Positions 21,941 through 64,000 of a stretch of DNA of 64,000 bases are shown here, in pieces. A model generated the notes under the pieces. It was not told the DNA's origin. It did not search any database and saw only the letters and a program-made list of their open reading frames with translations. The position numbers were made by a program, and so were the translations under genes. The stretch covers positions 1,447,283 through 1,511,282 of the forward strand of contig MU001674.1 of the NCBI GenBank assembly GCA_010093515.1. Direction: 5' to 3'. Position 1 is the first letter of the stretch. Each line of letters opens with the position of its first letter. This DNA comes from Lineolata rhizophorae (taxonomy: Eukaryota > Ascomycota > Dothideomycetes > Lineolatales > Lineolataceae).

Positions 21941-22649
21941 CTTCGCAGCTGGTTTCCGGGAATGTGAAGCTTGCGATGACTATTGCGTCGAAGGGGCGAC
22001 AGTCAAGTTATACGTTGTAGGGTGACATGGGAATTATGGGTCTTGCGACTACAAACCCTAGCCCAAGGGCCGCAGCCACGAGGGAGCTAGCGGCGGGGTT
22101 CGGCAATGATTGCCGGACGCGGCGGATTGCGCACTCGGGCCGGTGGTATTCATCTGTCTGGCAAGTGGATTGGACATCGTCCTTTGTGGCACATGAACCG
22201 TCGGGGCACGGTCTTGATAGCACGTATGACGTTATTAGGCTCGGCGAGGGCGGTGGTCGGCACAATCGGTGCTGCTTCCGCCGCAGACGGTGGCCCGCTC
22301 GTGATTGGAGCTTGAAATGCGCCACATGCCCACGTCCTTTTTAATCTGCTTCGGCCGAGTGCACACTAGCACGTACAACTAGATACTCTGTAGAAGGGAG
22401 CTCCGCCTGGGCAGAGGCGCAAAACCCTTAGTGCTGGTTCACCACAGACGTCCTAAACTTCCAGCTTTGTTTGAATCTTCACTCATCAGCTATTTGATTT
22501 GTCACGACCACCCGGTAGACGCAATGCATGGTTGGAATTTGATCCACTCGACGAAGGTCCATCCCGTCGTCAAGAATGCATGTTAGGCTGGTATCCATAC
22601 AAAGCAGAAACGCCCCGAGCCGTGCATCATTCGTCGACGCCCCTGGATT
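21941..22649. other. Gap between the OCD-family gene and eL8
   Basis: It holds the promoter of the minus-strand gene at its left and the 3' end of the eL8 gene at its right. Open frames on both strands lack motifs. Nothing else is seen. Confidence 0.5.
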
Positions 22650-24489: not shown

Positions 24490-27400
24490 TTACGCGAAGT
24501 AACTCTTCCAGAGCACCCCTTCAAGATCCTCGAGTTGTTCGGGCTCAAACGCCTTGGATAAGTTAGCGCATTCTTTAAAAAAAAAATAACAATGCAAGAC
24601 TTGTACCGACCTTGACATCAATGTGCCATGTATCTTGCCTCGTGTTCTTGAAGTCTGCCAGGATGCTTTTGACGCTCTTTCCGACGCTTCCCGAGTCCCC
24701 AGAGGCCTTCAGCGCCAGCGTTGCCAACACATCAGGCAGCCAGGGCGGCGGGGGGCTCTGGTACGGGAACGCCTGGACCAAGCTGCCCAACCCCAATACC
24801 GCAGCGTGCCGATTCAGGATGAGGCGGCTGTGCTCTGGGGTAGGAGTACCTGGGATGCGGCGTTTGGGTAGAGGGTTCTGGGCCAGCATTTCGGTGAATT
24901 CCTTTTTAAGGTTGGCTACGGTTCGGTCACGGAATGTGGCAGGAGAGCAACGGATCATGCCCGATAAAGTCGTAGAGGCGCCGAGACGGACCTCGAGCTG
25001 TGCGTCGGCAAGCATGGCCGTCACACAGTCGGTAAGCGCCTGCTGCTGACCCTCACTCATGACAAAAAGGCGGCGGAAATAGATGACTTGGATATTGATG
25101 AGGATGCGAAGGCGCTGGTGCCACGTGGTTGAGGAGCGGCCGATGCGAATGAGTGCGTCGATGAAAGCCTGGTCTTCACCACCGCGGTGAGGGATATTTG
25201 GCAAGTGACGGAAAACATGGTAGGCGAGAGATTGGAGTTCGCGATCCTCTTTGATGTCCATCATGTGCAGGAGCTGTTCCATGAGCGGGTCGGGGAAGAA
25301 AGGGACAAGCTGGATGCAGTCCTGTCCACAAAGTGTATTGTCGAGCCATAGTAACATGGTCTTGCTGCCCTGAGTATAAGACGAGGGTGTCTGCTGCCCA
25401 GGTGGGTGTTCTTTGCGCCAAACCTCAAGCCGATCAAAGACAGCTTTCATCATTTCGGTGAACTTGGAAGTCGGGGCGTACGGTCGAACGCCCAGAGAAG
25501 AGGCGGACCTCTGAGCTTCCATCAGGCTTTTGATGTCCGGATAAGACTCATGGTATCGTGTCCTATAGATACTTGCCAATGTCTGTCCGATGGCTTCTCT
25601 CACTCCCTTGTACGGGTGATCTAGATGGTTCATAAAATCCTCCAGAATTGGGGTTTCGAGCTGAAAGTGCCAGCCAAGATCTAAGACCGTTTGTTGAAGC
25701 ATGTTGATTTTGGAGCTCTGCTTGAACGCTGCGTTCGAGGACATGTCCAGCCGGAACTCCGCAAGCCAGTTTACCAATGGCCAAGCGCGTCGCGGGTCCT
25801 TGCCTTGGAGTGTCACGCGAAGGAAAGAGCTCCAGTACGTCGTGTTTTCAGGTGTCAGCTCGTCTTGGAAGATGCCGCGAACCCTCGGAAAAACGTACGT
25901 CCAAACCTTCGACCTCAACTCCGGGTCTAAGTCTGGGGCACAGTTTAGGAGGGCGCTCATTATCTCTGCTGTTGCGCGATGCTGATGTTTGTCGCTTCCA
26001 TCACCCCACACTGACTCCGCCAGCTCTTTAATGTCGTCGAAAGTCGCTGAGCTAAGGCCGGCGAAGACGAGTTCGAATGCATGCGTCAAGACAAGAGCAC
26101 TGGACATGCGGAAGCGGTCGGAGCTACTATCTCGCGGTTCCTGCTTCATAAAAGCGAAGAAGGACGAGAACCAATCCCGATCCATGATCTTTGCAATCAT
26201 TTTCCGCGCCCCTAGTTCGACCTCGTCATAGTCCATGTCCCCGACTTTGGTGGTGAATGCGGGCATTGTATCGTTCCAGACAAGCCAGCCTGGGTAGTCA
26301 TAGTCGACATAGTAGTTGGCGTCTGGACGAGAAAAGCTCCCCAGATACTCCTTTGTCCACTCGGGATCATACCGTCTGGTAGGGACCATCACCTTGTCAG
26401 GAAGCTCTTCGGTGCGCAGGATATACTTCTCGTAACTATGCTTGCAGAGGCTACGAGTGTGTATAACTGTGAATATCCCTACCAAAGCACCCGAGTAAAG
26501 CCCTCGCAGGCTCGGGTGTGTATCGATCGATCCCTTCGTTACGAGGTCAATCAAGCCCTTGCACGCAATCGAATCGAAGCGGGTGCCGAGGTTGCACACA
26601 ATGGCCGCGGTCCTGCTGGCAGACTTCCAGTGTGCTTCTCGAGCTATATCAACCAATTCTTCGGAAAGATGGGCCTTCTTTTCCTCTACCCTCTTTCGCT
26701 TTTTTTTGATGGTCTTGCGCTTACGATCGATGGTCGCCATGACATCGTCTTTTTCTTCTTTTGCGACAGAATATGAGATGCCTTCTACCACATCAGGGTT
26801 GAGCACAACCATACGCTCGAGGGCCCTGCACATATCCATGACCTGGAACGTGGCGTTCGAAGAAAGCTTTTGTACGGACGGTTTATCCGCGCCGGTCACT
26901 TCAATGAAAAGTTTGACCAGTTTTGGCGCAAACCTCCAGTTGCCACTGATCGTTTTGGCTAGGCTTCCGAACAACAAGGAGAACACCCCTCCCTTAATGC
27001 GAGGGTAATCCTGCTCTTTAAGAGCCTTCTCTAGAGCTTCAAGAAGTGGTGGGATGACCAGTGGACGGGCACCAATGATGCATTTGTTCGCAGACTCATT
27101 GGCAGATTGAGCTGTTCGTCGAATCTCTGTGTAGAGTGAGACACTTGACTGACTCAGATCTAGAAGTAATGCTTTTTCTAGTTCCGTCTTCGGCCTCGGC
27201 GTAGCATTGTGACGAAGGCGTTGCAGATGATAGACGAATGCCCTACGGACTAACAACGGACGCGGATATTCTTTTCTTAGCCCGCTGGCCCTGAATTGAT
27301 GCACGTCGGCCTGGAGCAGGCGGATGACTCGATCTAGAACTTGCGCCGACCGTTCAATGCCCACGTCAACGAACCACGCCCGGTATGCGTTGTATAGAGC

Positions 27401-30400
27401 ATTGAAACACTGAACATCGTCCTCCTGTCTCTCAATTAAGAACTGGTGGATGCGATGCAGAGTCTCCCCAGTCTCGTATCGCAGTTGGTGAATTGTCTTG
27501 TACCGAGGGTCATCGCGTTGGAGACGATAACCAGTGGGATATTGGAAATCGATTCTGTCCTCTTCGCCGTCCATATCGCCCAAGTTGCTGTCGTCGATGT
27601 CTTCTTCCTCGTCCGCCGCATTGGCCATTTCGATATCCTCGCCTGCAGCAGTATCCCGCTCATCCGGTCGATATTTCGAGTCGAAGAAGTTAGACATGCC
27701 CGAAAGGACCAGACGTACAAGAACCAGGTTGCGTGACACTTCATCGCTCCAGTCTTTCCCAGTACCATCCCTCTTTATGGGGCTGTCATTACTGGTGAGA
27801 GCGGTGAGTTGCTTGATCGCACCCTTTATCTGGCATTCGAAAAGCTCGACAGCAAAGCTCATCTCATCCTCAGACGGCGTGTGCCAGAAAATGTTCAGCT
27901 TCTTGGGGTCAACGATTTTGCCCCAGTCCGAAGTTGTCAGGCCACGTTCGACATCGGATTTCTCGTATATTGAGTAGTCAGCGGTGTATGTGACTGTCAG
28001 ATTCAGAAGGAGGTGGTGGATGAAGTTTGACACGTGAACGGTCGGGATGCCACGGCACCTATCTTGCATATGCGTGGCAATGTCGAAAAGCTCCTTCTTC
28101 CAGCGCATGACATCTGATCCCACATGAACCACACACATGCTGATGAGACTAATGTTCCAGACTAATGCGCGATCTCGCGGGAGAACCTCCGACCCCGTGG
28201 TTCGCGTAGAACCGGCGCCATTGTCATCAATTTCAGTGCGAATGCCAGCAATCAAGGAGGGAAGTAGACGCTCTAGAGCCTTCTTCGGGTTGATTTTGAC
28301 TAAGCTGTTGCAAATGAATGCGATGGCATCCCGGGCTTGATGAATGACGTGATTTGTTACAAAGTCGGCAATCTTGTTGAGGGCGATCTCATACAAATCT
28401 GGGGACAGTGCAGCAAGTAAAGGCGTGAATGTGGCTGGCAAAGTGTTGACAATGTTCTCTTCTGGCGAACCACTCCTAACCCGGGATGCATCAGGGAGGT
28501 TTTCCAACAATGCAAAGACGCGGCCCAAGAATGATATGATGAATTCTGATAGCCCCGTCGTCGAAGATTTCAGAATCATGGCTTCTTCGTGGTCGGTTAA
28601 TTCCTGATCGTAGTCGAACTCCATAGTCCGACCCTCTTTCTCCATTCGCTCCACCTGCTCCGTGATCCAGTGCATAGCCAACCCAGTGTCCGCAGATTCG
28701 TGTTCGAGAGGCGTAGTAGCCCCACTGCGAGATTCATCCTTGGCGGACGCAGGCTTCGACTCTTGCGTCAAGTCGTGCAAGGGTACGTTATAGCATACAG
28801 CTTGTATAAAAGCCAGCGTGTGCAGCGTCTTTTCCAAATCATTTGCGTCGATACCTGGCAGGGCTAAGCCTAGCAGCGAGGTGATGTGGCATCGAAAACC
28901 CTTCGTTCTAGCCATTGTCTTCGAAAGCACTTGAAGTGCCCGAATCGCAGAAATAGTACGATGCACTTCTACAAGACCTTGAATCGCAGGATAGATGCGC
29001 TGCAATGCACCAGGCAGGATTAGGCTCGGTTCCAGGTATGCCAAATTCTGTAAAGTCGACATCGAGAAGTTCATCGCAGTTCCGCTCTTGGCGAAGATAC
29101 CCATGAAGATCACTTCCCGTAGACAGCGAACAAATCTGCGCTTAACGGCGGCATTCAAGCGTCTGTCTTCGGGCACTTTCATCTCACCACTATGCTCCCT
29201 ATTCCACCGCATCACGAAGAAATCGGCCAAATAGTACACCAGCTGGGAAAGAGTTGCAGTCCAGCTTCCCGAATTTGATGGGTGGTAGAATGTTTCTACC
29301 GCCTGGATAAGGCTCTCAAGCTTCACCAGCATCGAATCCGGCGTCTCAGCAGATGAAGGTGAAAGGGACATGACGACCCAGCGAGCGATGTGGTGCGCAA
29401 CTGGGTGCTTCTGCCGGTCCCTCTCCAGCATCAGAGCAAGGCCAGCTCCCATATCAACGGCTGAACTGTACGGAGAAGTCGATTGGCCCACAGGGATTTC
29501 CAGGAGCCGAAGGATGGCCGTGAAAATCACGGACGACTGTTCGGCCGTAAAAATCCCGTGCTGCGAGAATGGGATGTGACTGCCTAGCAGCGAATCTCGT
29601 GCCAAGCGGGAGAAAACGTCGATGAAGTGTATATCGAATATCTTGGAACGATTGACAAGAGACCATAGGTGGAAAAACGTCGGTAGATATTGCTGTGGCA
29701 GCAAATCTGGACGGTCTTCGGGCGGGGGGGACGTCGGGAGCATGAGGTTCAATAGTCCAACCACAACGTAGGCATTCTCGTTGAAGGACGTGCTGAAATA
29801 GGGCAGGAATTCTTCGAACATGGCGGGAATCTCTTTGGGGTCGAAGTAAAGTTGAGCAAACGTGCAGAGCTTCGTAAGTGTGCGGATGGCCCTCTTGTTA
29901 TCCAGTATTTGGACTTCAGGAGGGAAGACGAAAGGCTTAATCTCCTTGAAAAGCGGTCTCCAGTCCAAGAGTAAGTCCTTTCCGGGCCGCACATAGTGCT
30001 TTCTCCTTCTCCAGTGCTTAGCTCGAAGATTGTCCCATACGTGTAAGATATTAGTATAGACTTACTTTGTCAACACCATGAACATGCTAGCGAAACGTTC
30101 TGCTACAGTAACATTTAATCCCGGAGCAAGAGCGAGGTCGTAGTACAGATGGATCAGCTTTATCCGGACATCAAGCGGCAAATCAAACTTGAGAGACAGC
30201 CAGCCCCGAATCTCCCTAGTCCAGTGGACAGCTCCCGGCGCAAAGTCTCCGGCCTTAACCGCGATATAGAGATTCTTGATGCAGACTTCGAGATCGGCCA
30301 CCCGCTTGGCTTGAGTCTCGACATCATACGGCAGGCATTCGTGATAGGGAAACGTTCGAGGCCGGCTGCGAGATAGCTTGGCGTCCTCTATGTTGTTGAT

Positions 30401-32609: not shown

Positions 32610-33485
32610 TTAAAATGGCAGATCCATATCCTCTGCACTCTCTTTTACTTTCCCTTTCTTTGAACCGAAACCTTCAGCACCAGTCGTCACTTCCTGGATA
32701 AAGTTGACTAACGCGCCAACATATTGCCTCTGGCTGCTGGGCAAGAAATGCCCTCCTGGGTGGTACACTGTCCAATCGCCCCTGCTTGCGCTCTCGCAGG
32801 CGTTCACTAAGCGCAAACTCCTGGCCTCCTCCACTACCGTATCCACGCTCCCGATAAAATGCATCATTGGCGTATTAATTTTCGGCTCATAGAACGCCTG
32901 ATACAATTTATTCGTGCTAGCTCCGAAGCCCGAGTACGACACGGCGAACTTCAGCGGCGGATGCACCACATCGGTTACGAACCCGGTGTCCTCCTCGAAA
33001 CTCTCCGGGAATCGCATCCCACCTTTTGGTTGCGCCGCCTCGAAAGCCTCCCTCCTCCCCGGCTCTAGCAAGCTCGCCAACATCCCGGCTAGCGCACCTC
33101 CTTGCGAGAAGCCGATCACGCCGTCGAAGGGCCCCTCCGCCTTCAGCACCTCGGCCACGCCTGCGAGCCCGCGTTCAATCCCTTCGTACGTGTAGGGCTC
33201 TGCGTCACCCTTGCGACGCCACCAGCCCCAGGCATCGGGCTCTTCGTCTTCGCCGTCCGTCTTGTTGGCCGGGTCGACGACGGCGGTCGCGGCTTCGAAG
33301 GTCAGGTCCGCGCGTGCGAGGTGGATAGGGGCGGTGGGGTATGAGAGCGTGACGCCGGCGGGGAAGGCTTTCTGAAGGTTCTTTTCGAGGGCACGTGTTT
33401 TGGAGCGGAAGAGTGGACCGGACTGGGTGTAGCCGTGAAGCATAAGGATCTTGAGCGGGCGTGTAGGAGGGCCGAATTGGGCCAT
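32610..33485 (-). CDS. FSH-family serine hydrolase (OVCA2/Fsh type)
   Basis: An intronless frame of 291 residues. KILMLHGYTQSGPLFRSKT at the N-terminus is the oxyanion-side signature of the FSH1 domain. GFSQGG holds the nucleophile Ser127; HFIGSVDTVV supplies Asp215 and YHPGGHFLP His246, completing an alpha/beta-hydrolase triad. Homologues include yeast Fsh1-3 and human OVCA2, thought to be esterases; fungal relatives are sometimes mislabelled dihydrofolate reductase. A Lys/Glu-rich tail follows. The substrate is unknown, and no signal peptide is seen, so it is probably cytosolic. It shares a 390-bp promoter with IPI3. Confidence 0.93.
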   Translation of the reverse strand: MAQFGPPTRPLKILMLHGYTQSGPLFRSKTRALEKNLQKAFPAGVTLSYPTAPIHLARADLTFEAATAVVDPANKTDGEDEEPDAWGWWRRKGDAEPYTYEGIERGLAGVAEVLKAEGPFDGVIGFSQGGALAGMLASLLEPGRREAFEAAQPKGGMRFPESFEEDTGFVTDVVHPPLKFAVSYSGFGASTNKLYQAFYEPKINTPMMHFIGSVDTVVEEARSLRLVNACESASRGDWTVYHPGGHFLPSSQRQYVGALVNFIQEVTTGAEGFGSKKGKVKESAEDMDLPF

Positions 33486-33875
33486 GGTAACGCCAGTGTG
33501 GTCGGAGAGGTTCCCGGTCTAGAAACCGAAACCGAGGAAAATCTCAGCACGTGGTATCTCGCTTGGTAAAAATAACAATGGCAACGCACGTGAAAGTGAA
33601 TATGTACTTGGAATCCAATTTCACTATCGGTCGTAGATTGAGTTTCGGCTTACCAGTGCGTCGCAGTCGATAAACTACCAGGCAGCCAATGAGGGGCAGT
33701 GGCTTATTTTGAGTCAGAGCCGAGGCGTGATGTGGCTAGACCGAGTCGTGAGGCTTCCCATGTCACCCTGCCGGGAAAGCTTTTCTACCTTTGCTCCAGC
33801 TCCGCCAAGGCCGCCAACTCTCCACAACGACCGAGTCACGACCGTCACCGGCCACGCGTGGCCGCCTAGAGCCAA
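33486..33875. promoter_or_regulatory. Compact divergent promoter (hydrolase / IPI3)
   Basis: 390 bp separate the two start codons. Both 5' leaders and promoters must fit here. No TATA box or named motif is evident. Confidence 0.5.
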
Positions 33876-35709
33876 ATGCTTGCGGAACATTTGGTTGCCG
33901 CCATATCGGCTCGATCGGCACCGAGTCCGACCCCCACGAAAGATGGTGGAATATTTCTCTATGAGTTCCAACCTGTGGTAACGCAAAAGGCGATTTTCAA
34001 GAAAAGTGCGGCGCCGCCAAATTGTGTGGCCGTCAACGACTCGCATATCTTCGCCGGCCAAGTTGACAAAGCCGTGGTTCACGTGTACAATCGAGAGAAA
34101 GGCAACCAGGAAGCTATAATACCATTTCCGGAGCGCATCACCTGCCTCACTCTTGCTGCTTTGGGCACCTTGCTTGTCCTAGGCACGCAGGGCGGGAGAT
34201 TGATCCTATGGGAGGTAAGTATGACCATAAGGCGCTCGTCTCGCGTACGAACTGTGCTGATATGATGCAAAGGTATGTACGGGACGACAGGTAATTACCT
34301 CGCCTTCTCATCTTCAAGCAGTCACTGCAGTTGCCGTTGACCCTACGTCGAACTTTGCCTTCACCGTCTCCACCGACACGTACATACACATCTGGTCGTT
34401 GCCTAGATTACTGGCATTCAACGCGACACCAGAGTCGCTAAGTCCCACCAACACGATATCCGCCCATCGGTCCTCGATATCAGCGCTTACCGTTGGCCAT
34501 TCGACTACTGCGGCATGTTTTGCTATTTCAAGCGACGATGGCGGGACAGTACAGGTTTGGGACATTCGGACTGGCAACATACTAAAGTCATACTTGACTG
34601 CCGAGGCATCCAGAGTTACGTCTCTCGCGGTTGATCCAGCGGACCGCGGTTTCTACATTGGTTTTGAGGATGGATCAGTGCAAATGGTTCACTTCTTCTC
34701 GCAGACTGTGAAGCCTAGCATTGCTGAGCTATCTTCGGGCGCAGAACTTACTCGAGATCCTAGCCACCTGCGCGCTACGAACACGCCGGTTGCTTTACAG
34801 CAAATTTCTCGCTGGATTCCTGAAGTTGGCAACCAAACTGGTCCCGTATTGTCTCTCGCCCTTAGCTGGGACGGTACAATGCTCCTATCTGGTCACACTG
34901 ACGGGCGTATAATCGCTTGGGATATTGGTAGCAGCCGATACGAATCCACCATCGCGACTCTCCCAGGACCTGTTTCAAATCTGATGATTCTTCACCCAAT
35001 ACAACAAACCCCGAATGATGCGAGCATTGTGACAGCTTTTTCAGGAGGCCGGGACCCATTGACATTGGCGCGCTCTGTCGTCAAGCCGCGCTACGGACAA
35101 GAGGAGGGTGGCGGGCATAATGGAGATGGCAACAACGTTCCAGCAAACTACAGCTTTACGGCTAGTTTTAGAGCAACATGCTCTTTGCGACCTAAAGCCA
35201 TGCCGGACATTGATGCCTTGTTTACTGAAGGGTTTGACGAGCTTTGCAGTTTAGACCTCCAGTCTAAACGGTCAATCACCCAGAGGACAACGAAACCTGT
35301 ACAGAAGGGGCATCAAGAAGCAGGCAATTTCACATCGATGGCCGATGAAGAAACTGATTTCGGCAACGTTGTAGAACAGACGCTGCAATCGCATGACGGG
35401 TCTTTACGTGCGCGGGTGTCAGTGTTGGAAGAATGTAACAAGATGCTCAACAAACGGATCGATACGCTGCTCCAAGAACGTGCAGCAATTGAGGATGCTA
35501 TGAGGCAGGAAGAAGAACGGAAGCTGAGGTCATCGAGAAGGCGGCACGAGAGGGTGACCAGGGGCTGGGCAGCTCGACCAAGTAACCTAGACCCAGTAAA
35601 TTTTGTTCAAGGGAAGCAAGACAATGCTCACAGCAGCGACACAGATATGGCGCAGAGCAGCCAAGAAGAAGACAGCAGTGGTAGCTCTGATGGCTTGGAC
35701 CCAAGCTGA
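33876..35709 (+). CDS. IPI3: Pre-rRNA-processing WD40 protein Ipi3
   Basis: Exons 33876-34214 and 34273-35709 encode 591 residues. The opening MLAEHLVAAISARS, then GIFLYEFQPV, NCVAVNDSHIFAGQVDKAVVHVYNREKGNQEA and GGRLILWE-VCTGRQV, match fungal Ipi3. WD-repeat blocks follow (TYIHIWSLPRLL, GTVQVWDIRTGNIL, DGRIIAWDIGS). A C-terminal coiled coil (about 485-550, ARVSVLEECNKMLNKRIDTL) and an acidic Ser-rich tail end the protein. Ipi3 forms the Rix1 complex with Rix1/Ipi2 and Ipi1, which drives ITS2 processing and the Rea1 step of pre-60S maturation. The splice joins phase 0 to phase 0. Confidence 0.92.
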
Positions 35710-42759: not shown

Positions 42760-44423
42760 ATGGCGTACAACCAAGTCCTCCGTGCCGAGAAGGATTTCTC
42801 AAAGGAAGTCGACAAGCAGCTTCCAGAAGCCGAAAAGCTCGCCGAGGTGCGCTCATGAAATATCCCAATCGAGTCAGTTTCGGGAGGGGTGCTCACCAGC
42901 TTCTTTGTGGCCAGAATAATGTCCAGGCAGCCATCGAGAGGTTGCTCCCTTTGGAGAAGCAGACGCGACAGGCATCGGACCTGGCCTCGACGTCGCGCAT
43001 CTTGGCCGGCATTGTGACCATGTGCAAAAATGCGGGCGACTGGAGCTTGCTTAGCGAACAAGTGCTGCTGTTGAGCAAGAAGCACGGCCAGCTCAAGCAG
43101 GCGACGACTAAGATGGTCCAGGTCGTTATGGGGTTCTTGGACGACACGCCAAACTTGGAGACGAAGCTGCAGATCATCGAGACGCTGCGAACGGTGACTG
43201 AAGGGAAGGTAGGCTAGGAACCACGGAGTCCGTGCGATTAGTTTGCCGTACTAACGCTTCCCATGTCTTCAGATCTTCGTCGAAGTTGAACGTGCCCGCA
43301 TCACACGGGTCCTCTCCGATATCAAGAAGTCGCAGGGCGATATCGCCGCCGCGACCGACACCCTGTGCGAGCTGCAAGTCGAGACGTTTGGCTCCATGAC
43401 GCGGCGTGAAAAGACCGAATTCATCCTAGAGCAAGTGGGACTGTGCATTCAGAAGGGTGACTGGACGCAGGCGGGCATTTTATCGCGCAAGATCAGCACG
43501 CGTTACTTCGCGCGCAAGCCTAAGAAAAGCCCTGAACAGCTAGAAAAGGAGCGCAAGGAACGCGAGGAGAAGGAGAAGACCCGTTCCGTCGATGAACCTC
43601 CGCCGGAACCAGAAGACGATGTCACTGATCTCAAGCTGCGCTACTACGAGCAACAGATCATGCTGGACAAGCACGAGGACAAATATCTGGAGGCGTGCAA
43701 ACACTACCGGCAGGTGCTGGATACGGAGGCGGTGGAGGAGAACCCGGAGAGGTTGAAGGCTGTACGTGACCTTGTCATGTCTAAACATTATGTGGTTATA
43801 TTGACTAAAACCGGGAACAGTGCCTCCAACGCATTATCTACTTCATCATTCTCTCGCCTTACGACAACGAGCAGTCTGACCTCCTCCATCGCATCTCGCA
43901 GGACCCACGCAACGGACAGGTCCCGCAGGAAAAAGAGCTTTTGGGGCGCTTCATCAAGCCGGAGCTTATGCGCTGGCCCGTCGTCTCCGCCGAGTTTAGC
44001 TCCCATCTCTGCTCCACAGACGTCTTCGCCGCGGATGAGCAGTCGGCATTCGCAGCGGGCGACCCGAAGGCATATACACGCTGGACCGACCTCCGCCGCC
44101 GCGTCATCGAGCACAACGTCCGCGTCGTGGCGAAATATTACACCCGCATCTACATGTCGCGCCTAACGGAGATCCTGGACCTGACGGAGATCGAGACGGA
44201 GAGGTACATCTCGGAGCTCGTCACGGCGAAGACCATCTACGCCAAAATCGACCGGCCAGCCGGCGTAGTGAGCTTCGCCAAGCCGCGCGATGCGGATGAC
44301 GTGCTGAATGAGTGGAGCTCGAACATGAAGAGTTTGCTGGGTCTGCTGGAAAGGATTGATCATTTGATTACGAAGGAGGAGATGATGGCGCGCATTCAAC
44401 CAGCATCGAAGAAGGCGCATTGA
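42760..44423 (+). CDS. RPN5: 26S proteasome regulatory subunit Rpn5 (PSMD12)
   Basis: Exons 42760-42846, 42915-43208, 43273-43761 and 43821-44423, all joined in phase 0, give 490 residues, close to the family length. Family sequence includes AAIERLLPLEKQTRQASDL, EVERARITRVLSDIKKSQGD and KYYTRIYMSRLTEILDLT within the C-terminal PCI domain (about 330-450), then a helix with LLERIDHLITKEEMMARIQP that joins the lid helical bundle. Rpn5 is a scaffold of the proteasome lid next to the deubiquitinase Rpn11. A charged Lys/Glu segment (EKERKEREEKEKTRS) lies around 200. The acceptor of intron 1 could alternatively be the CACCAG at about 42893-42898, which would add a few residues. Confidence 0.96.
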
Positions 44424-45320: not shown

Positions 45321-46590
45321 TCACCACCCTCTTCCCCATCCCAGCCGCTTCCTACCGTTCCTCAAGCCCTCTACCTCGTCCGCCTTCCTCCTCTCCCATT
45401 GCCACTCTACTAACACCGGCAGAAAATGCCAAAGGTCGAACTCGGGCCACAAGCACTCCAGAAACACGACCTTCGTGTGCTCATGGCACTGCCAGAGCAT
45501 GAAGTCGGAGAGACGCTCGACGCCCGAGGTGCGCACGAGCATGTCCAGCGGCGGGTCGGTCGGCGAGTACAGGTGCGAGGATATAGTGTCGGCGGTGATG
45601 GTTTCGGGGTCGAGGAACTGTGGAGGGGAGGAGGTTGCCGGGGGCGAAGGTGCAGAAGTGGGGTGTGTGGAGGGGGATGCAGTGGAGGGGTCAGAGGATG
45701 TGGATGAGGGCGCTTGTTGGTGCCGATGCTCCTGTTTCGCTTTCTTTTCACCCTCGTATTCCTCGCCGTCTGCGCTGCTGTCCTCGATTGTCCCAGGGGG
45801 CACCGGCGATGACGAACGTGATCGGTTAGCTCCGTTCCCGTTTTCTTCGGCGACAGTGCCTAGGTGCTGCTGCGCGCGGATGTGGCGCGCAATGTGGGAT
45901 TCAGAAAAGGTGCGCTTGGCGCGGGCGGCCTCGCTCTGGGATGGCGGCGATAGTGGCGTCGAGTACTCCATGACGGTGCCACGAATCGCCGCGGTAATTT
46001 CCTCCCGCGAAGTATAGGGAAAGCAAACGTTGAGAACGGCCCTAGAAGGTCACCACGTCAGCCCACGTCAGCCAAAGGCGATTGAAAGCAGATCGGAGAG
46101 GGAACGCCCACCTCTTGTTCGCCTTGGTCAGGTCAACGGCGCGATTTACGGCCTCCAGCACGTCCTGCTTGATGAGTTCTCGCTGGCCCAATATCCGAAT
46201 GCACGCGCCATACTGATGCAGCAGGTCGCCGTGCTGCGTCAACTGTTGCAGCTTCACCTTGGCCATATCCATCAGCGCATCCACCTCGTACTTGGATCTC
46301 TTGAAGTTCTCGATGCTGAAGGCGTAGATGGTCACAACGCGCACCCCGCTCTTGTAGCACACTTCGAGGATCCGCGCCAGCGCCTCGAAGCCGAGGTTAT
46401 GTCCCTCGACCGTCTCGATGTGATGATTGCGCGCGAACCGCCGGTTGCCGTCCATGACGAAGGCGATGTGCTCTGGAATGGGCCCTTTGCGCAAGGCGCC
46501 AATGAGGAGGTTCCGCAGGTGGGAGATAGCAAATTCGAGCGGAGGGGACTGGAGAAACCAGTTGGTGGCATTGGAAAGATGTAGCGACAT
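45321..46590 (-). CDS. RER2: Cis-prenyltransferase (dehydrodolichyl diphosphate synthase, Rer2/Srt1 type)
   Basis: Exons on the minus strand, 46590-46112 and 46041-45321, give 399 residues. HIAFVMDGNRRFA carries the catalytic Asp47. TVEGHNLGFEALARILEVCY, VTIYAFSIENFKRSK and AVLNVCFPYTSREEI follow. The C-terminal substrate-binding region MLVRTSGVERLSDFMLWQC is intact. Between the two halves sits a Ser/Pro/His-rich insertion of roughly 120 residues (about 190-310); similar insertions occur in fungal members. The enzyme adds isopentenyl units in cis to farnesyl diphosphate to build dolichol, the lipid carrier for N-glycans, at the ER or lipid droplets. Assignment to Rer2 rather than Srt1 is not secure. 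It shares a 725-bp promoter region with the next gene. Confidence 0.93.
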
Positions 46591-47315
46591 GATGGCAGGG
46601 GAAGAGCCCGCTGATGGGCAGCGTATAGGGTCTTAACGATGGATGATGGAATTGAGATTGTGGAAAAGCGAGCGACAGTTTATGATTCAAATGACAACGC
46701 AAGCTGCCAATCGCACCCAAAAAGGCCCTCGGTCGCTCAAGTGGTATCTCGGCAGTAACATAGAGGTATCATGGTAACGAAAGCGACAGGAGGAGGCTGG
46801 CAGAAATAACCAGGGACTACCTAAGAGGCAACACTCGGGAGCAAAGCTTACGGGGTATCGTAGATCCCGAGGCCGCGAGGCACATGCGCCAAGACGCCCA
46901 AAACGCCCCGTCTAGGCGCCCACCGGCTGTTCTGCCACGTCCATCCGTGTCTCGGAGGGCTGCAAGCCAGCGGAGCGCCTGACCGCCGTCGCCACCGCCT
47001 TCGAAGCATTACCGGAACTTCCTTCGCCGCCGTGATCGTCCTCGCAAGACACTAGCTGCTGAGCTTCTCCCCTTCAACCTTCTTCACGCGCTGCCTCTTT
47101 CCGTCCTTACTATTTTTAATGCCCTAGTTAGTATTCTTTTGAGATTTCCCTTCCTTCTTTTGCCCGTATGTAGCGCTATCATTGTGTCGGATTTCAAACG
47201 GACCGATCGGCCACTCCCTCAGACCGAAGACTAGCTCTCCACAGACCGAAGAATAAAGCGCCGTCCGACTCGCCTATTCTGTGCTTCCCCTTCCTCCACA
47301 GCTTCAGAGATCGCC
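46591..47315. promoter_or_regulatory. Divergent promoter region RER2 / Cys-Pro protein
   Basis: A 725-bp interval between divergent starts, with pyrimidine-rich stretches before the 47316 start. No specific element was recognised. Confidence 0.5.
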
Positions 47316-49660
47316 ATGGACTCAGCCAAGGATAAATACGATGAACTCGCCCAGGTTGCCCGCCATCTGGTTGAGGGATTCCAATCCCTTGCTGTGGCCA
47401 CTGTTGGGATTATAGTGTCGGCACGGCATCAAGGCCTACGAGATTGGGAAAATTTGAGGGAATTGGTACGTTTACATCTCTATTCGAGAGCGTGAAACAC
47501 GGTCGAGACTCGCGCGAGAAGTATCGACGTTTACACTTTGGCTGTGAACTTCTCGATGATGAATGTCGAATTATTAGCTCTAGACATGTAGCCACCCTTC
47601 AGGGATGGCGATGGATTCAACCCTCGATTTTATTCTGACGACCCCGTGGAAATACCCTCTCTGCCGACAGCGTGTTCTTGGAATTCTTATTGACATCCCG
47701 TCCAATGCAGGCTCCGAAACTATTCGATTCGATCCACGAGAATGAGTCGAGCGACCCTTCACCTTTACCTATTCTCCCTGAAGTGGACATGCTTGCCATT
47801 TGGTTACAAGAACTCTACAAGCCCAATAATCCCGACGAATACGGAGTGGGCCGGGCTATACGGCGTGCTAACCAGGCTTTGAAGTCGTACAGACAGTTCG
47901 TTGAACGCACATCACCCAGCGTTCCACACAACTCTAGCACACAACAACCACCTCCCGTAACATCCCCTTCGGTTTCACCGAAATCAGGAACAAAATGCCG
48001 CGCTAAAGCGGACCACTTCGCCATTGATTTCACTGTTCCTGGCACACCTGGCAAGCTTGGCTGTCCCTTCGCCACGATGAAGGCTTCTCGTGCCGCCGAC
48101 AACTCCGCCATTAACACCTCTTCCTCGGTGTCTCCTCCTCGTGCCCGCTGGCAAGGCAGCCACGTTGGCAATGCGAGCAACGGTGGCCGTCGCTCCAAAC
48201 GCCCTTCTTTTGTCGATCCTATCAAAGCTGAAGTATGCCACAACGACGCACACAACCCAGACGCAGCTCTCATGTCCCCCACGGCAGCTGTCTCCGTTGA
48301 CGGTGGCGCTGCTGGCACAAACAACAATGATGTAGCGTCAGATGCGGCGGCGGGTGGCACGCCGGCACCCATCTGCCCGATTCGATTCTTGGATCAGCAT
48401 TCGCCCGAGGAAATGGCGCAGTACTTCGAGAAACACAAGCACGAGTTACCGAGGTCGCATGCGGTCTGCGTTAGAAGGTACCAGCGGAACGAGGAAAGCA
48501 TACGGCAATTGGACGCGAAGTACGGCAATCTAGTCAGCATGATTCAAGGGCTTGGCGAGCAGCATAGAAGGTTTATGAGCGAGAAGCTCGAAGGTTCCGA
48601 GGACCATGAGGATGGTGAGGCGGAGGGAAACGAACATGGAGTTATAGACGAAAATCAGGAAGGAGTGTCTGATGCTGCCGCGGATGATGGCTTGGGAGAT
48701 GCGGGAGGAGCGCCGTCTGGCCGCAATGTGCCAATGCAAGGTGACGAAGAACGCACTAAGGAAGAGATTTTGCGCGAAGCAGCGCTAGAGAGCCGAGTCG
48801 AGGAGGAGGAAATGGAGCACCAGAGGCGGAAGGCGGAAAAGGTAAAGAACTGGGCTCATGCAGTCAGCGTGGAGACAGTTCCTAGCGCCGCCAGTGAGGC
48901 GGCAACGCCGCCGCCAACGGCCCCTCCCGAGGACAACCGAAGCAAAGTAGGTGGCGTTGGAGCCGGGCAATCAAACCCGAATGTTTCGCCTGGCAGCCCG
49001 ACACAGAACCGCTCTTCTACTTTCACAGCCTCAGGCGGTCAACCTGACGATAGCAATGACGACGACGATAGAGTGCCGCACTTTGACCGTCATCTCAAGG
49101 AAATCCGTGTCGGCGAGTCACCCTCCCGCCCGTGGGGCATTGTCGTGCCGGCGCGCTTCCATCAGACTCCAAGCGCGACGCAGGAGGACGAGGAAGATGG
49201 TGAGGAACCTGCCGTGCCACCGCCATCGCCACCAAAGACGGCGGCGACTCATACCGGGGGCGAGCAAATGGGAGGAGGGCTACCAACGTCCTCTCCGGAC
49301 GAAGCGGTTAAGGTAAGAAGGGATTGCCCTGTTGCACAAGGAACTCCGGGTCCATCTCTCATGATCAGGGGTGCAAGAACGGGTGGGCGGTGTCCTTTTG
49401 GACACGATGCTCTGGGTCAAGGAGCGTCGCAACATGTGCCTCCGCCACCTACGTCCCCCGGGAGGACTCGCAGCCGGAGCAGAAATGAGCCTGAGAGGAA
49501 CGAACCCGTTGTGATGCCGGATGTAGAGGGAGTCAGGGAAAGGCAGGGACCTCAGATGATGTTTACAGGGCCCGTGTTTATCGGGTATCCGGTGGAGCAG
49601 GCTGTCACACTGTTGAAAGAGGGCGGGTGGGGAGGTGGAATGGGAATGGGAAAAATGTGA
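47316..49660 (+). CDS. Uncharacterised fungal protein with four Cys-Pro motifs
   Basis: Exons 47316-47465 and 47711-49660 give 699 residues. A helical N-terminal region (MDSAKDKYDELAQVARHL to about residue 115) is followed by mostly disordered, acidic sequence. Four Cys-Pro dipeptides stand out: GKLGCPFA (Cys168), APICPIRFLDQHSPEEMA (Cys272), RRDCPVAQ (Cys589) and GGRCPFGHD (Cys611). Around Cys272 the run to KYGNLVSMIQGLGEQH (about 270-335) looks like the conserved core, and MMFTGPVFIGYPVEQAV near the end is another likely conserved block. A Glu/Arg-rich coiled coil spans about 398-432. No catalytic domain, signal peptide or membrane helix is seen. The Cys-Pro pattern, especially Arg-Cys-Pro-x-x-His, resembles haem-regulatory motifs, but could be structural. 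The splice site joining exon 1 to APKLFDSIHENES is phase-consistent. Confidence 0.8.
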
Positions 49661-50396
49661 GGCTCGCAGAGGTGTGTCCCGCATTCCTGTTATTGTGGGG
49701 CCTTCATATATCGCTAGACCCTTAACCCCATGTCGCTTCGATTTGAAGGCACGACCTCCGTGAGGGTGCAATCTTAAACTCCGTCGCAGTCTTCATGGCT
49801 GGAAGTTATATCGCAGTGGGAGATGTGCATCTCAGCGATTTGTACTTCGTGTCTCTTAGAGCGCTACGACCTGCGTTGGACGTCGAGAATTAGGAACGCC
49901 CCTATCAGGCACTTTGAAACGTTCGGCCCGCTAACCTTGAACCAAATAAGCGCCAAAATCAAAGGGTGGAGCACAGCCTCAGGTGCGCCGAAATCCTTCT
50001 GGGCGTCAGCGCCACAGCTGTTCGTTCAATCAGGCTTGGCGTGAAAGCTCCTAAAACATCCGCCCCTCTGATTGGTCCACTAGAGGCGTTTCAGGATCCA
50101 GGCAAGGGTTGCAAGTCTTAGACCCCCCACAGGATTGAGGCTTATATCCGGCAAGCACGAAGGATTTCAGGCAGCAATCGCGCTCCGCACGGCGCAGCTA
50201 TGTAGGCAGCTGCCACGCCGCAGCAGGCTCGACTAGTATTTGAACTGCTGTGCCGACACCCAAGTCAAAGTACTTGAACGTCTGGTCACTGGCTCTTGTG
50301 GAGACCGTCTTGCTCTCGTGTGCTATTTCTCACTGCTCACTTGTACGTCCAGCTCTAGGTAGCCAACAGCTAAGCATCTCGTCGCACAAAGCAGCC
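49661..50396. other. Gap before the four-helix membrane protein
   Basis: Holds the 3' end of the preceding gene and the promoter of the next. A frame open from 50250 runs into the next gene, but the ATG at 50397 is the better start. Nothing else is seen. Confidence 0.5.
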
Positions 50397-51139
50397 ATGG
50401 CTCCACCAACTTTCGACCACCAGGCCCGCATGGCCACAATCATCACCTTCGTTCCCACCTTCATCCTCCTCTTCATCCACGGCGTCATCACCCATACCGC
50501 CTTCCCTGCGCTCGGCATAATTCCTCTCTTCATGTCCTCGGTCTTCGGGGTTCTCCTTGTCTTCACCAACAAGTCCGTGCCCGGCGGCAAGAAACATATC
50601 ACGGCTGAGGGCATATTCCTGGTCGACGCCATGCTCAGCATCCTGCTCTTCATTTCCCTGGTCACTACCTGGGCTCACAATGAGGGATGGCGCTATTCCT
50701 ACACCGCCGGACATGCGATGCTCTCGGCATATGCAACTGTTGGTCTGATGGTGAATTGGTAAGTGATCAAGTTCATTTGCTGGCGCCGAAAATTTTCATT
50801 GCCGTTTTGGAGCCGGGAAGTTTCGTCTAGTGATGAGCACTTGCTTGGGTGTTTAATAATGTTGCGAGTATTTTGTGTCGGAAGCATCAGCCGATGTTAA
50901 GTCTAGTAGTTAGTCTTGAGAGCACCTGATTACGCTAAGCGACTGACAACTGTTTCTGCTGTAGTGGCATTCACTCGTTCTATGCAATCCGCAAGGCCAA
51001 GGATGTTTTCTTCGACAACCCTCTCTTCTTTGAAGCCTGTGATTGCGATGATCCCGAGACGCACCATCGGCATCACAATTGGGCCTTTCTTAGACGGTCG
51101 GATTATACACCTTTGACTGACGATCCGTCCGAAGCGTAA
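50397..51139 (+). CDS. Small fungal four-helix membrane protein of unknown function
   Basis: Exons 50397-50758 and 50965-51139 give 178 residues. Four hydrophobic helices are evident: MATIITFVPTFILLFIHGV, LGIIPLFMSSVFGVLLVF, GIFLVDAMLSILLFISLV and a last one across the splice junction (LSAYATVGLMVNW-CGIHSF). A soluble tail rich in His and Asp follows (ACDCDDPETHHRHHNWAF). The layout resembles small fungal integral membrane proteins without known function. The intron is phase 2 with a good GTAAGT donor. The His/Cys/Asp-rich tail might bind metal, which is only a suggestion. Confidence 0.8.
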
Positions 51140-57497: not shown

Positions 57498-60400
57498 CCG
57501 AGGGTCGAACCTGCAGGCACAGACACAGACACAAGCACAGGCGCAGGCGCAGGCGCAGCAGCAATTGGCGCGGCAGCAACAGAGGAGGCAGCAGAGGCAA
57601 CAGCAGTTTCTGCGCGGCGGCGCGGCGGCGCCTAGGCCCGAGCACGCGCATGCCCGGAATGCGGCCGCCGCGAGCGCGAACGGGGCCGTTGTGGACTTGA
57701 CGGTGGAGGATGGGGCTGCTGTTGTGGATTTGACGGGGGCGGATGAGGACGCTGGGGGGGGGCGGGGGACGGGAGTGAAGAATGGGGCGCGGGGCGGAGG
57801 AGGAGGAAGAGGAGGAGGGGTTGAAGGCGGCTCGGCGGACGCGAAGGCACCGCCACCACCGCCGCCACAACAGCAGCAGCAACAACAGCAACGGCCAGTA
57901 GAGGTTAGCGATAGCGCGAGCAGCGAGGATAGGGGTAGTAGTGGGGTGGCAGGCCAGGCGGGAGGGGAAGCGCTGCTGCCGCTCTGGGAGAAGGGACGGC
58001 CTCAGATATATTTTGAGGACGATGATGACGAGAATGACGATGATGAAGGCAACGTTGATGTCTTGATGAGTAGCGAGGACATGAACATTGATGCCGCGGC
58101 GGGAGACGCGAATGTGGAGGCCGAGCAGAGTGGCACACCGCTCCCGTTCCCGCCTAGGCCCGGCTCGAACGCTTCCCCGTTGCAGATATACGTTGAGGTT
58201 CAGCCATCGATGCCGAAGCGCAAGGCGGTTGGCGGGCCGGGGACGAGGTCTACGGCTTTTAATCCGCCGCGCGCAGCAATGAGGTTGGCTCGAGGGAGTG
58301 AGTGGACTCTTTTTCATCTCGTTTGATCCCGTTAAGCTACCTGTGGAGATCGGATTCTGTGTCCATGCTAACAACAAATCACCGTAGAACCAATCGACTT
58401 TTACCCCTGGCAAGGCAACGGCATGCACCCCGAAGACATCACTTCCGACGCCACTATCAAAGGCGGCATCGGCGAAAAATCCAACCCGCACCAGGACATG
58501 ACGGGCACGGCGCGGCCCTCCCTCTGGCAGCACCTGAAGAACAAGCCCGGGCTCACGGTTCTCGGCCACTTCTTCGTCACGGTGCTGGAGCGCCGCCGGG
58601 CCGCGGGCCGCCTCACGGCGCCGCCGACGTTCCGCCCGCCCCCGCGCTCCGCCTTCAACGAGACCAAGCGCGAGGGCTGGCTCAAGGACCTGGCTAACCC
58701 GGCCGTGCCGCTCCGCCGCATGAGCAGGACCATCCCGCACGGCATCCACGGCAAGCGCCTGCTCGAGCAGTGCGCCGCCAAGCAGGTCCCGCCCGCCCGC
58801 GCCATCTGGCTCATCAAGAGCGTCGGCACCAACGAGATCCGCGCCTTCAAGCGCAGCAGGCCCCTCTCGACGGCGGGCGCGCCCGGCGGCTCTTCAGCTT
58901 CTTCGGCCTCGACTGCCGGCGGCCTAACGGGCGAGCTGAAGTACTTCCGCGAGTTCACCATCGGCTTGGAGCAGTTCGTCGAGGCCACCATCGCCGACTG
59001 CGGCACGCCCGGCTGGAAGCAGCGCATGGACTACGCCGTCCGCCTGTCGAGCCACATGTACGCGGCGCAGCTGCTCGAGCAGGACCATTACTTCGACTGG
59101 CTGCTCGGCTCGCTCGAGGCCAGCCCGACGGACCGCTTGCCCATCTGGCTCCTGCTCATCCAGGTCTACTGGCGGGACCTCGTGGCGACGCGGCGCCGCG
59201 GCCGGCGGCTTGCCGAAGCCGTGCTCGCGCAGCTCACCAGCGCGAGGGCAGAATCGGGCGCCGACGCGGATGCCGGGGGCGATGACGGCGGGCCCTTGCA
59301 ACCCCTCATCGACCGGCTGCAGCGCCTGGTCGCGCTCCTAGCCACGAGGCACAGGGCCTGCCTCATCATGCCTCGCGTGTGGTATAAGTACGCGAGCGAA
59401 CTAGAGCGGCTGCCAGGCGTGACCAAAGCGACGGCGCGGGACGACGGCGGCGGCGGCGGCGGCGATGGCAGCACGGCGGACGCAGCGGACGAGGCGGTCC
59501 GGGCCGCGGTGCGGAGTATCGTCCGCAGGAACGAGCGGTTGGCGCCGCCGACGAAGGCTACAGCAACGACAAGAGGCCCGCGAGACGTCGGCGGAAGCGC
59601 CGCGGCGCCACGCAAGGAAGTGCTCGCGCTTCTAGACGCCGCCGCCTCGGCGCGCGATGTGCCCATCGATAAGTTGGCGGAGCGGTGCGTCGCGGTTTTG
59701 GGCGGCGACGGCGACGGCGACGTGCGCGAGCTTGTCACCGTGACGATGCAGTGGGCGACGACCATTTTCCGCGACGGCGAGCACAGGATATACCTTGCGG
59801 CGAGGCTGGTTAGGAAGTGGAGGAAGATGGGGCTGGATACGGACGAAGGGGTCTTGGGGTTTATGGCGGGCATGGGGAACAAAGGGGAGGGAGGGATGGG
59901 CGTGGGGATCGCGTGGAGGGAGGTGTTCAGGCTGGTGGGGGAACTGGTCAGAGCGAATGGGTTCGGGGTGGGGAGGTATTTGGCCAGAGTGATCGCTACC
60001 GGCGGGCTTAGCGATGGCCTAGAGGAGTCGTGCTATCGCAGGCTCATTGCAGAGCTGCCGCTGCACCAACTGCCGGACAACATCGTCACGCTGCGACGCA
60101 ACCTTCTGCGCGACGTCGGCCTCGATGCCGACGAAGAAGAGGCGACGATCGATGCCGTCATCGATTCGGTCGTCCGCCAGCTGCCGGACATGTTCGAGGA
60201 TGAGATGCTTGACGACTCGTCACCCGTGCCAACCCACGATCTCTCAAGCCTCAGTACTACGATCCGCCTCGAAGTGAGCCGCTGGCTGCGCGGCCAAGTC
60301 ATCTCCCGCTCCTCCAGCCCGGAGACGGACGCCGACAATGCCGCCAACGCCCTCACGACCGCCCAATTCACCACGGTCCGCGACATCCTCGAGCAGCTCG

Positions 60401-63342
60401 GCGATATCTCCATTCTCGCCGACGTGATTGGTCTAACGCTAGGCTCCCCCGCCGACGCCGCTACCGCCGCCGCCGTGGCCGACACCATCAACTACCACCT
60501 ACGCGCCTTCGCGGCCATCGGCGCCCTGCCAAGGCTCTTCGAGCTGCTCGTCCTGCGCTACCAGCACTTCGCCAAGAGCGCGGGCGCGGCGTCGGCGGCG
60601 GCGGCGGCGGCGCAGGCGGCGGCGGGCGGGGTCGGGGCCACTCCCGCGCCCGCGGACCGGTTGCCGGACAGGGCGCTCATCGTCGCGCTGGCGGATCTAA
60701 CCTGCAGGGTGGTGGGGCCCGAGGCCCAGCTCGTGGGCCAGCTGCGCATGCATCTGCTCCAGAGCGAGCCGCGCGGGCCGCCCATCTGCTCGCCCGTGTC
60801 GGACATGGCGGCGGCGGCCGAGGCGCCGCACGCGGCGGACGCGCCCGACCTCATCGAGCAGTACCTTTCGGGCGGCAGCAGCATGGATCCGAGCACGCTG
60901 CGGGGCGCCTTCGCGCTCGTGCGCGGCGCCTTCGAGAAGGACGTGGCGGCGGCGCGCGCGGGCGGGAGCGCCGTCGCGCCGGCCTTCGCGTCGTACTTCC
61001 ACCGGCTGCGCGCCTTCGACGAGGCCCTGTTCGACCAGCTGGTCCAGGGGTGGCTGTCCAACTGGCTGCTGGAGCCGCGGTGGCCGCCGGCGCTGCGCCC
61101 GGCGCTGGCGATCCTGGTCGGGGCCGGCTGCCTGACGCTGGGCGCCTTCGCGAGCAGCGCGGATCGGCTGTATGCGGATCTGGTGGGGTCGCATCCGATG
61201 AGGGCGAGGCTGGCGAGGAGGGTGCTGGGCGGGCTGGTGCCGCCCAGAGGGGCTGGGGCAGGCGCAGGTGCTGGCAGGGCTGCGGACGGGCGCGGCGAGC
61301 CGCAGGCGCCGGTCAAGGACGCGTACCGCTTCCGGCTCGAGCAGGAGAAGTTTTGCGCCGAGAGGGCCGACGTGGTGCTGAGGTATACGGGCTACTTGGT
61401 GCGCGCGGTGGCGGCGCTACGGAAAGGCGGCGCGGGCGCGAAGGGCGCGGCGGTGGACGAGCGGATGGACGGCGGCGGCGGCGGCGGGGTGGTGGAGGAA
61501 TTGTTCGGAGGCGAGGGGCTCGGGCCGGGCGACGCCGAGGGGCTGGTGGCGGTGCTGAGGCGCGCGGCGGCGGAAGACCCGGCGGCGTTCGCGGACGCGA
61601 TCGTGACGGGGCCCGCGGAAGGCGAGGGCGCGCCCGGCTGCGGCGCCAGGGGCGCCGCGGCGGCCGAGGCCGTCGAGGCGGCCGAGACGACGGCCAAGCG
61701 CCTCCTCGACCGCATGGTCGACCCGGCGGCGTGCCTCGGGCTCGGCTGGCGGCCGCCGGCCGCGCAGGTCGACGTGCTCGCCTCGCTCGCCTCGGAGCTC
61801 TCCCTGCCCTTCTGCCAGCTCCAGCTGCACCTGGTGTTCGGCATGGACGCGGGCGCGGGCGGCGACGCCGCCGCGGCGCTCCTGGACGTCATCAAGGCGG
61901 CCGTCGACCGCGACTCGCCCGTCTGGACCGACCTCATCGCCGGCCTCGACCCGGGCGTCATGAGCAGGATCCGCGAGCACGCCGAGGGCAAGATCCTGGG
62001 CGCGGCCGCCGCCGTGTTCGCGCCGCCGCCGGGCCCGCCGCCGCCGGAGGACGAAGGCGAGATCGTCGAGCAGGTCGCGGCCGCGCCGGGGCCGGAGGCG
62101 GCGGGCGCGGGGGCGAAGGCGGAGAGCGATGCTGCCACGGCGATGCTGCGGCGGTACCTGAAGGTGGTGGAGCTGACGACGGCGGCGGGCGGCGGCGGCG
62201 GCGGCAGCAGCAGCGCGCGGGCGGCGGCGGGCGGCTCCGCCGACGACGTCCTCGCCCTGGCCGTGGCGGAGCGTCTCCGGGCGGTCGCGGAGCTGCTGCT
62301 CTCGGGCGACGACGAGCGCGTCGCGGCCGCCGGCGACGTGTGCGCGTGGATCCGCGCCCTGCTGCGGCTCGCCCTCGTGCACCGCTTCGGCGCGGCGCAG
62401 GAGGGCCCGCTGGTGGCGGTCCTGGGCGCGATGCTCGGCAGCGACGCGCTGGACAGGTGGCCGGCCACGGCGGAGCACGTGTTTGACGTCGCCATGTGGC
62501 TGTCGGACGGTGAGTTGCGCCCGTCCGCCGGAGCGCGCGGGCGCGTGGACGCTGACCGAGCCGCAGACCTCCCGGACGACCTCCGCGCGGCGCTGTATCG
62601 CGCCGCGGCGCTGGGCACGCCGCTGCCGGGCGCGGCCGGCGCCGGTCCCGCGGCCGGGCCGGCCGCCAACCCGCACGCCCACGCCGCGCCGCGGCTCGCC
62701 TTCCTCTTCGGCCCCGGCCTCGCGCCGGACGCCTGGCTCGGCCTGACCACGGCCCCGCCGGCCGGCCGGCCGTCCTCGAGCTCGGCCGCCGCCGCCGCCG
62801 CCAACCCCGGCGCGCCCTCTCCGGCCGGCTTCGCCCCGGCCGGCGCCGCGGCCTCGTCGCCCGCCACGCCCGGCGGCGGCACCGGCACGCCGCAGCCCTT
62901 CGGCCACCACCACATCGCGCGCCCCGCCACGCCCGGCTCCGTCGGCGCCGTGGCCGGCCAGCGCTCGCCCTCGCGGCCCGGCACCCCCGTCGCCAGCATC
63001 CGCCCGGGCGTGGCGCCGCAATTCCCCCAGCAGCGAGGCGGCGCGGGCGCAAAGGCCTCGCAGCAGGGGCAGGCCCAGAGCCAGGCCGGAGGAGCCGCCG
63101 CCGCCCAGGGCCCGCAGCAGGGACAGCAGGCCGCCGCCGGCGCGGCGCAGGCGCCCGTGCCCTTCTCGCCCCGCCGGTGGGAGATGGTGCCGGACTCGGG
63201 GTCCGGCGCCGGGGCCGCCGGGGCGGGCGCCGTCGGAGGGGCCGTCACCGGCGGCGCCGGCGGCGCGGCTGGCGGGCAGGGCGGCGCGGGGCTGAACGAT
63301 GCCGCCATCAGCTTGGTTGTTTTTGGGGCGCGGAGGGTGTGA
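57337..63342 (+). CDS. MED12: Mediator complex subunit 12 (Srb8)
   Basis: Exons 57337-58297, 58388-62509 and 62567-63342 give about 1952 residues. MSSRP at the start is like other fungal Med12. The N-terminal region carries a poly-Asn run, Gln-rich stretches and an acidic block (EDDDDENDDDEG). The core begins KPIDFYPWQGNGMHPED, continues with TARPSLWQHLKNKPGLTVL, RSAFNETKREGWLKDLANP and VPLRRMSRTIPHGIHGKRLLEQC, and ARAIWLIKSVGTNEIRAFKRS, the Med12 domain. Helical sequence follows to about residue 1700; the last 250 residues are Ala/Pro/Gly-rich and probably disordered. Med12 belongs to the CDK8 kinase module (Cdk8, cyclin C, Med12, Med13) that reversibly binds Mediator. The 57-bp segment 62510-62566 has a GTGAGT donor, CTGAC branch and GCAG acceptor, yet no stop codon; if retained the protein would be 1971 aa. 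Confidence 0.93.
57463..57498 (+). repeat. (AAC)12 microsatellite coding poly-Asn in MED12
   Basis: Twelve perfect AAC codons in frame. This is a length-variable simple repeat inside the disordered N-terminal region. Confidence 0.95.
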
Positions 63343-63490
63343 GTGCGGTGGGGTGGGATGGGTAGGCCAGGGGGGGAGCAGTTGGGTGTTTCTGGGAACG
63401 TGGGGACATGGATCATGGCATCGATTTACGTACCGGTCACGATGTGAGAGGGACACAAACTTACGTAGATCTCGGACCTCGGACGTGCAA

Positions 63491-63527
<37 letters not shown>

Positions 63528-64000
63528 TTTTTCCTTTTTTTCTCTTCTTTTAATTTCACGGCCCCGCGGCCGCCTACCCTATGCCTAGATAGATAGATGG
63601 GTTTTCCACGTAGTCGTGGTGGATGAGCTGTAAAACAATGTGATGGCGTCATCAGACACTTCCAACTTGTGTATGTCGCATCGTGATGCCGCCATGTTCG
63701 TTGGCGATGCTGCTGGAGCGAGCAGAGCCGTGTGCTACCGGGCTGCCGCCCTTGCCCAAGGAGCTTGCCTCCCGCCGTCCTCGTCCGCGCGAGCGGCGTT
63801 TTCCTACAATATATAGCGACGGCTGGCGGGCGCATCGGTCGCGGTCGGGCGTATTTGTGTTTTTCGCTTTTATATTTGTTTTTGTTTTTGCGAATGTTTT
63901 AGCTAGATAATGTTTACAATTGTTGGTTTGTTTAACGTAATCACCCACCGAGTGTCTCACCCCATCGAGTGTCTCACTCATCACCACCACCACTCCGAAA
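63343..64000. other. MED12 3' flank
   Basis: Contains a TG microsatellite, T-rich runs, and no recognisable gene up to the end of the window. A TATATA word lies near 63811. Confidence 0.55.
63492..63524 (+). repeat. (TG)n microsatellite
   Basis: A perfect TG dinucleotide run of about 33 bp is followed by a T-rich tract, in the MED12 3' flank. Confidence 0.95.

Follow-up and report, generated by a model that had tools for sequence, protein, structure and literature searches.

A protein of Lineolata rhizophorae with four Cys-Pro-hydrophobic motifs is a candidate haem-responsive adaptor or carrier

The fungal haem-responsive proteins in the literature compared here are the yeast regulators and carriers Hap1, Gis1 and Hhy1, together with metabolic enzymes and 5-aminolevulinate synthase (ALAS) of the white-rot fungus Phanerochaete (PMC10771590). 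What experiments have revealed about haem biosynthesis in filamentous fungi is described as limited (PMC10940619). The classical haem-regulatory motifs are the Cys-Pro (CP) motifs of the ALAS leader (PMC12856317), and Phanerochaete ALAS has two CP motifs (PMC10771590). Hap1, the yeast haem activator, has seven such motifs; six of them, which are clustered, reportedly contribute little or nothing, and one is essential (PMC5758875, PMC6025097). The Kd of Schizosaccharomyces pombe Hhy1 for hemin is 1.09 uM; of its two sites, the CP one can be altered with hardly any effect, and alteration of the CPC one lowers affinity 7.4-fold (PMC13135908). The citrate synthase of Phanerochaete has one CP motif, yet its spectra suggest His as the haem ligand, and the pig enzyme is also inhibited by hemin, though mammalian citrate synthases are described as having no CP motif (PMC10771590). 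Haem binding is reportedly favoured by positive charge and hydrophobic residues (PMC6356037), known mammalian haem CP motifs lie mostly within loops that join helices (PMC10377097), and for many CP motifs haem plays no part (PMC5758875). The Soret band of bound haem falls at about 370 nm with a five-coordinate Cys ligand and at about 420 nm with six-coordinate or His ligation (PMC10377097).

The protein studied here is encoded in a window (the whole stretch of DNA analysed) of 64,000 nucleotides from the ascomycete L. rhizophorae. The initial annotation had proposed a two-exon gene for a 699-residue protein, and this model was reproduced from the letters (Table 1). Five junction pairs leave the frame open when donors are sought between 47440 and 47500 and acceptors between 47600 and 47760; one yields 699 residues and the other four yield 687-721 residues, with all four CP motifs retained under each of the five. 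The open frame that holds exon 2 runs for 673 codons and cannot be put down to chance, since 500 base shuffles of positions 47001-50000 yielded no frame longer than 284 codons. The G+C content by codon position (0.64, 0.52 and 0.56 for first, second and third) adds little as coding evidence.

Table 1. Features of the gene and its predicted product, in window coordinates.
Feature	Position	Strand	Residues	Basis or remark
Exon 1	47316..47465	+	1-50 of 699	ATG to GTACGT donor; without Cys
Intron	47466..47710	+		245 bases, GT-AG; junction pair yielding 699 residues; predicted
Exon 2	47711..49660	+	51-699 plus stop	Open frame
CP motif 1	48062..48070	+	C168	LGCPFAT
CP motif 2	48374..48382	+	C272	PICPIRF; directly N-terminal to helical core; His at +8
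CP motif 3	49325..49333	+	C589	RDCPVAQ
CP motif 4	49391..49405	+	C611	CPFGH; sole CP site with His at +4
Helical core	48344..48595	+	262-345	Single-sequence AlphaFold2
Charged stretch	48755..48850	+	399-430	Possible helix; sequence reading only
C-terminal block	49568..49591	+	670-677	GPVFIGYP; order-leaning composition

The protein is poor in Cys, as first noted, with seven in 699 residues, and the four that precede Pro stand at the positions originally given; the remaining three are C146, C226 and C303. Each CP is followed by a hydrophobic residue: F in GCPF (C168), I in ICPI (C272), V in DCPV (C589) and F in RCPFGH (C611). No His occurs in the 30 residues downstream of C168, and the first His after C589 is at +26. 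All four CP nonapeptides have a net charge of +1. Charge fails to mark out the CP sites, because the nonapeptides around two non-CP Cys are more positive (C146 +3, C303 +2).

The ALAS locus in this genome served as a control. It is where the 5-aminolevulinate synthase family is best matched (L031, around C12:531098-532330), with 640.2 bits against a cut-off of 338.55. Upstream of this match, in a different reading frame from the enzyme, is a stretch that begins METIIRQAGAVCPFLKK and is presumably the leader, predicted to lie in an earlier exon. It contains two motifs, AVCPFLKK and RRCPIMGK, with the Cys at residues 12 and 51 counted from that Met. The CPF and CPI forms at this locus are also those of the protein studied here; ALAS, in contrast, is an enzyme and carries a mitochondrial leader, whereas Pfam found no enzyme domain in the exon 2 frame. 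RCPFGH had been likened to the motifs of Hap1, haem oxygenase HO-2 and ALAS. The likeness to ALAS stands for the CP-hydrophobic form, but it does not extend to the His, as neither CPFLKK nor CPIMGK has one at the CPxxH position. One Hap1 motif, CPVDH, is of the CPxxH kind.

How far the CP sites exceed chance was assessed by shuffling the residues of the protein within its own composition (68 Pro in 699) and by comparison with 20 stretches of 10 kb (200 kb) from eight other contigs, in which 324 open frames reached 150 aa or more, many of them not genes. At least four CP occurred in 444 of 200,000 shuffles, whereas at least four CP[FIV] occurred in none and three in 12. The 324 background frames contained 1,758 Cys, 130 CP and 14 CP[FIV]; none had two or more CP[FIV], and the only one with four CP had 21 Cys and no CP[FIV]. 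A reduced set of 134 frames overlapping by less than half contained 810 Cys, 52 CP and 9 CP[FIV], with at most three CP in any frame. At these rates the binomial probability of CP at four of seven Cys is 8.7e-4 (324 frames) or 5.1e-4 (134 frames), and that of CP[FIV] is 1.4e-7 or 5.2e-7; the smaller values flatter the case because [FIV] was picked with the protein in view and many background frames are not genes. Within the window, four of the six CP[FIV] found among 85 frames belong to this protein. CP alone is therefore a modest signal, and a proteome of an assumed ten thousand or so proteins would hold a few like it. The CP-hydrophobic form is a strong signal, though [FIV] was in part a post hoc choice. 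By the shuffles and the 200-kb background alike, the sites that drew attention to this protein lie beyond chance and are CP-hydrophobic in form.

Apart from a core around residues 270-335 and the C-terminal block, the protein had been described as disordered. In the best single-sequence AlphaFold2 model the core has a mean pLDDT of 77.8 (50.8-77.8 over five models) and a pTM of 0.45, with predicted helices at residues 273-279, 282-291 and 296-344. C272 sits just ahead of the first helix, within the initial 20 residues of the model, which are of low confidence. A fold search with this model returned three matches, every one with an E value of 7 or more and none meaningful. On a composition-based disorder scale, which separates regions poorly, the most order-leaning windows are 1-51, 81-111, 301-331 and 661-691; going by the first two, some order is possible in the N-terminal part as well.

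Searched against Pfam at E up to 10, the exon 2 frame, preceded by 24 intron codons, had two matches, both far below the cut-off (E 0.072 and 0.33), and a PDB sequence search with exon 2 gave none up to E 10. Pfam placed neither a zinc-cluster DNA-binding domain of the Hap1 family nor an amidohydrolase-like domain of the Hhy1 family in that frame. Compared by description, Hap1 resembles the present protein in having several CP-hydrophobic motifs and a coiled-coil part, and differs in its zinc cluster. On the same descriptive footing, Hhy1 shares a fungal origin and CP or CPC motifs, but is a protein of 463 residues with a predicted amidohydrolase-like domain. The regulators Gis1 and Bach1, with two and six CP motifs respectively, own JmjC and zinc-finger or BTB and bZIP domains, in contrast to the lack of a usable Pfam match in exon 2.

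Six-frame searches of the L. rhizophorae genome (30,968,845 bases in 48 contigs) yielded no second copy of the gene among the best candidates. A pattern coding for RCPFGH occurs there at three places, this gene and two others, against one for the reversed control. The two others (L009, C15:828915-828932; L010, C28:325186-325203) sit within 52- and 40-codon open frames and may be short exons. Among viral contigs, the exon 2 query gave no loci from 11 stretches, and a 69-residue core query gave one locus from five stretches (L002, 44% over 32 residues), which we took as chance. Of three degenerate patterns, only the second hit the viral contigs, at two stretches (L006, L007); both encode HHKHEVPSSH in short frames otherwise unlike the protein, and were rejected. 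In genome contigs, two loci from 27 stretches matched at 67% and 62% over 21 residues in a bacterial open frame that is otherwise unlike the protein, and these were also taken as chance; the frame is presumably that of a DNA polymerase III tau/gamma subunit. Strings from the core and tail were absent from open-licence PMC text, which need not mean that the protein is undescribed. Among the papers listed there for haem motifs, both in general and with fungal terms, no title or abstract beginning named a comparable protein, and strings of the Hap1 type matched only papers with unrelated titles. Some hypothetical proteins of other Ascomycota may share a core like CPIRFLD.

We tentatively favour, at a little under even chances, a reading in which at least one CP site binds labile haem reversibly, the protein being an adaptor with a helical core that responds to haem or buffers it. 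The protein would be soluble, probably cytosolic or nuclear, and single in its genome. Labile ferric haem may be held by the Cys thiolates of one or more CP-hydrophobic motifs, the likeliest being C272 ahead of the core and C611 in the CPFGH tail motif, and its binding could alter the contacts that the core or the tail makes with a partner. The outcome would be a haem-responsive adaptor, or a haem buffer or carrier; sensor, buffer and carrier cannot be told apart by sequence. Several observations argue for haem: four CP[FIV] among seven Cys, unmatched in shuffles and background frames; the charge of +1 on the CP nonapeptides, given that positive charge favours binding (PMC6356037); the place of C272 ahead of a helix, in a low-confidence part of the model, which recalls the loop-borne mammalian motifs (PMC10377097); the presence of two CP-hydrophobic motifs at the ALAS locus; and the precedent of yeast proteins with multiple CP motifs (Hap1, Gis1, Hhy1). 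Against it count the higher charge around C146 and C303 and the reports that CP motifs are often non-regulatory, from Hap1, Hhy1 and Phanerochaete citrate synthase; CP motifs by themselves do not suffice. The four haem-type motifs make the protein a concrete candidate for haem sensing or movement in filamentous fungi. If haem binding is real, it would add a CP-motif haem-responsive protein from a family missing in the Pfam copy used. A bolder proposal, which we regard as unlikely, is that it represents a new filamentous-fungal family of haem sensors or carriers without the domains of Hap1, Gis1 and Hhy1, in which haem bound in a loop preceding a coiled-coil core and at the CPFGH tail motif couples the level of labile haem to the assembly of a partner complex.

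Of the other explanations, the one that survives best, although we think it rather improbable, makes the protein a scaffold with a coiled-coil core, its CP-hydrophobic sites being helix caps or short motifs where a partner docks and having nothing to do with haem. The long helix of the core model fits such a scaffold, as does the lack of a haem role for many CP motifs (PMC5758875). Against it, the motifs at this genome's ALAS locus have the identical form, and CP[FIV] is not known to be a docking motif. Chance is a poorer explanation and seems improbable. A Pro-rich and probably fast-evolving protein, nearly a tenth of it Pro, could acquire four CP, the frequency of such shuffles being enough for some proteins of this kind proteome-wide, and the partly post hoc choice of [FIV] also works in its favour; but no shuffle gave four CP[FIV], and the single background frame with four CP drew them from three times as many Cys, none in the CP[FIV] form. 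Least probable is that the Cys serve redox sensing or metal binding, with Pro adjacent for a non-haem reason: each Cys may well matter in a protein with so few, but there is no CxxC pair, the Cys are spread widely from 146 to 611, and the hydrophobic residue after every CP is left unexplained.

The 683 bases upstream of the gene contain a single CCAAT and a single GATA-type site (reverse strand), a poor guide to iron control. To the left lies a minus-strand gene for a cis-prenyltransferase (45324-46632, Pfam Prenyltransf); the match spans two adjacent open frames, so an intron probably splits it. To the right, the open frame at 50244-50759 matched nothing in Pfam. Elsewhere in the window are two very long open frames, 24575-30061 on the minus strand (1828 aa) and 58372-63342 on the plus strand (1656 aa). 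The latter is overlapped antisense by minus-strand frames at 61392-63425 (677 aa; no Pfam match at E 0.01) and 61417-63549 (710 aa). Other genes in the window include those for an ornithine cyclodeaminase/mu-crystallin-type protein (20513-21976, minus), an FSH1-type serine hydrolase (32613-33518, minus), a WD40-repeat protein (34261-35706, plus) and a protein with a PSMD12/CSN4 N-terminal domain (43255-44163, plus) that is probably a proteasome lid subunit.
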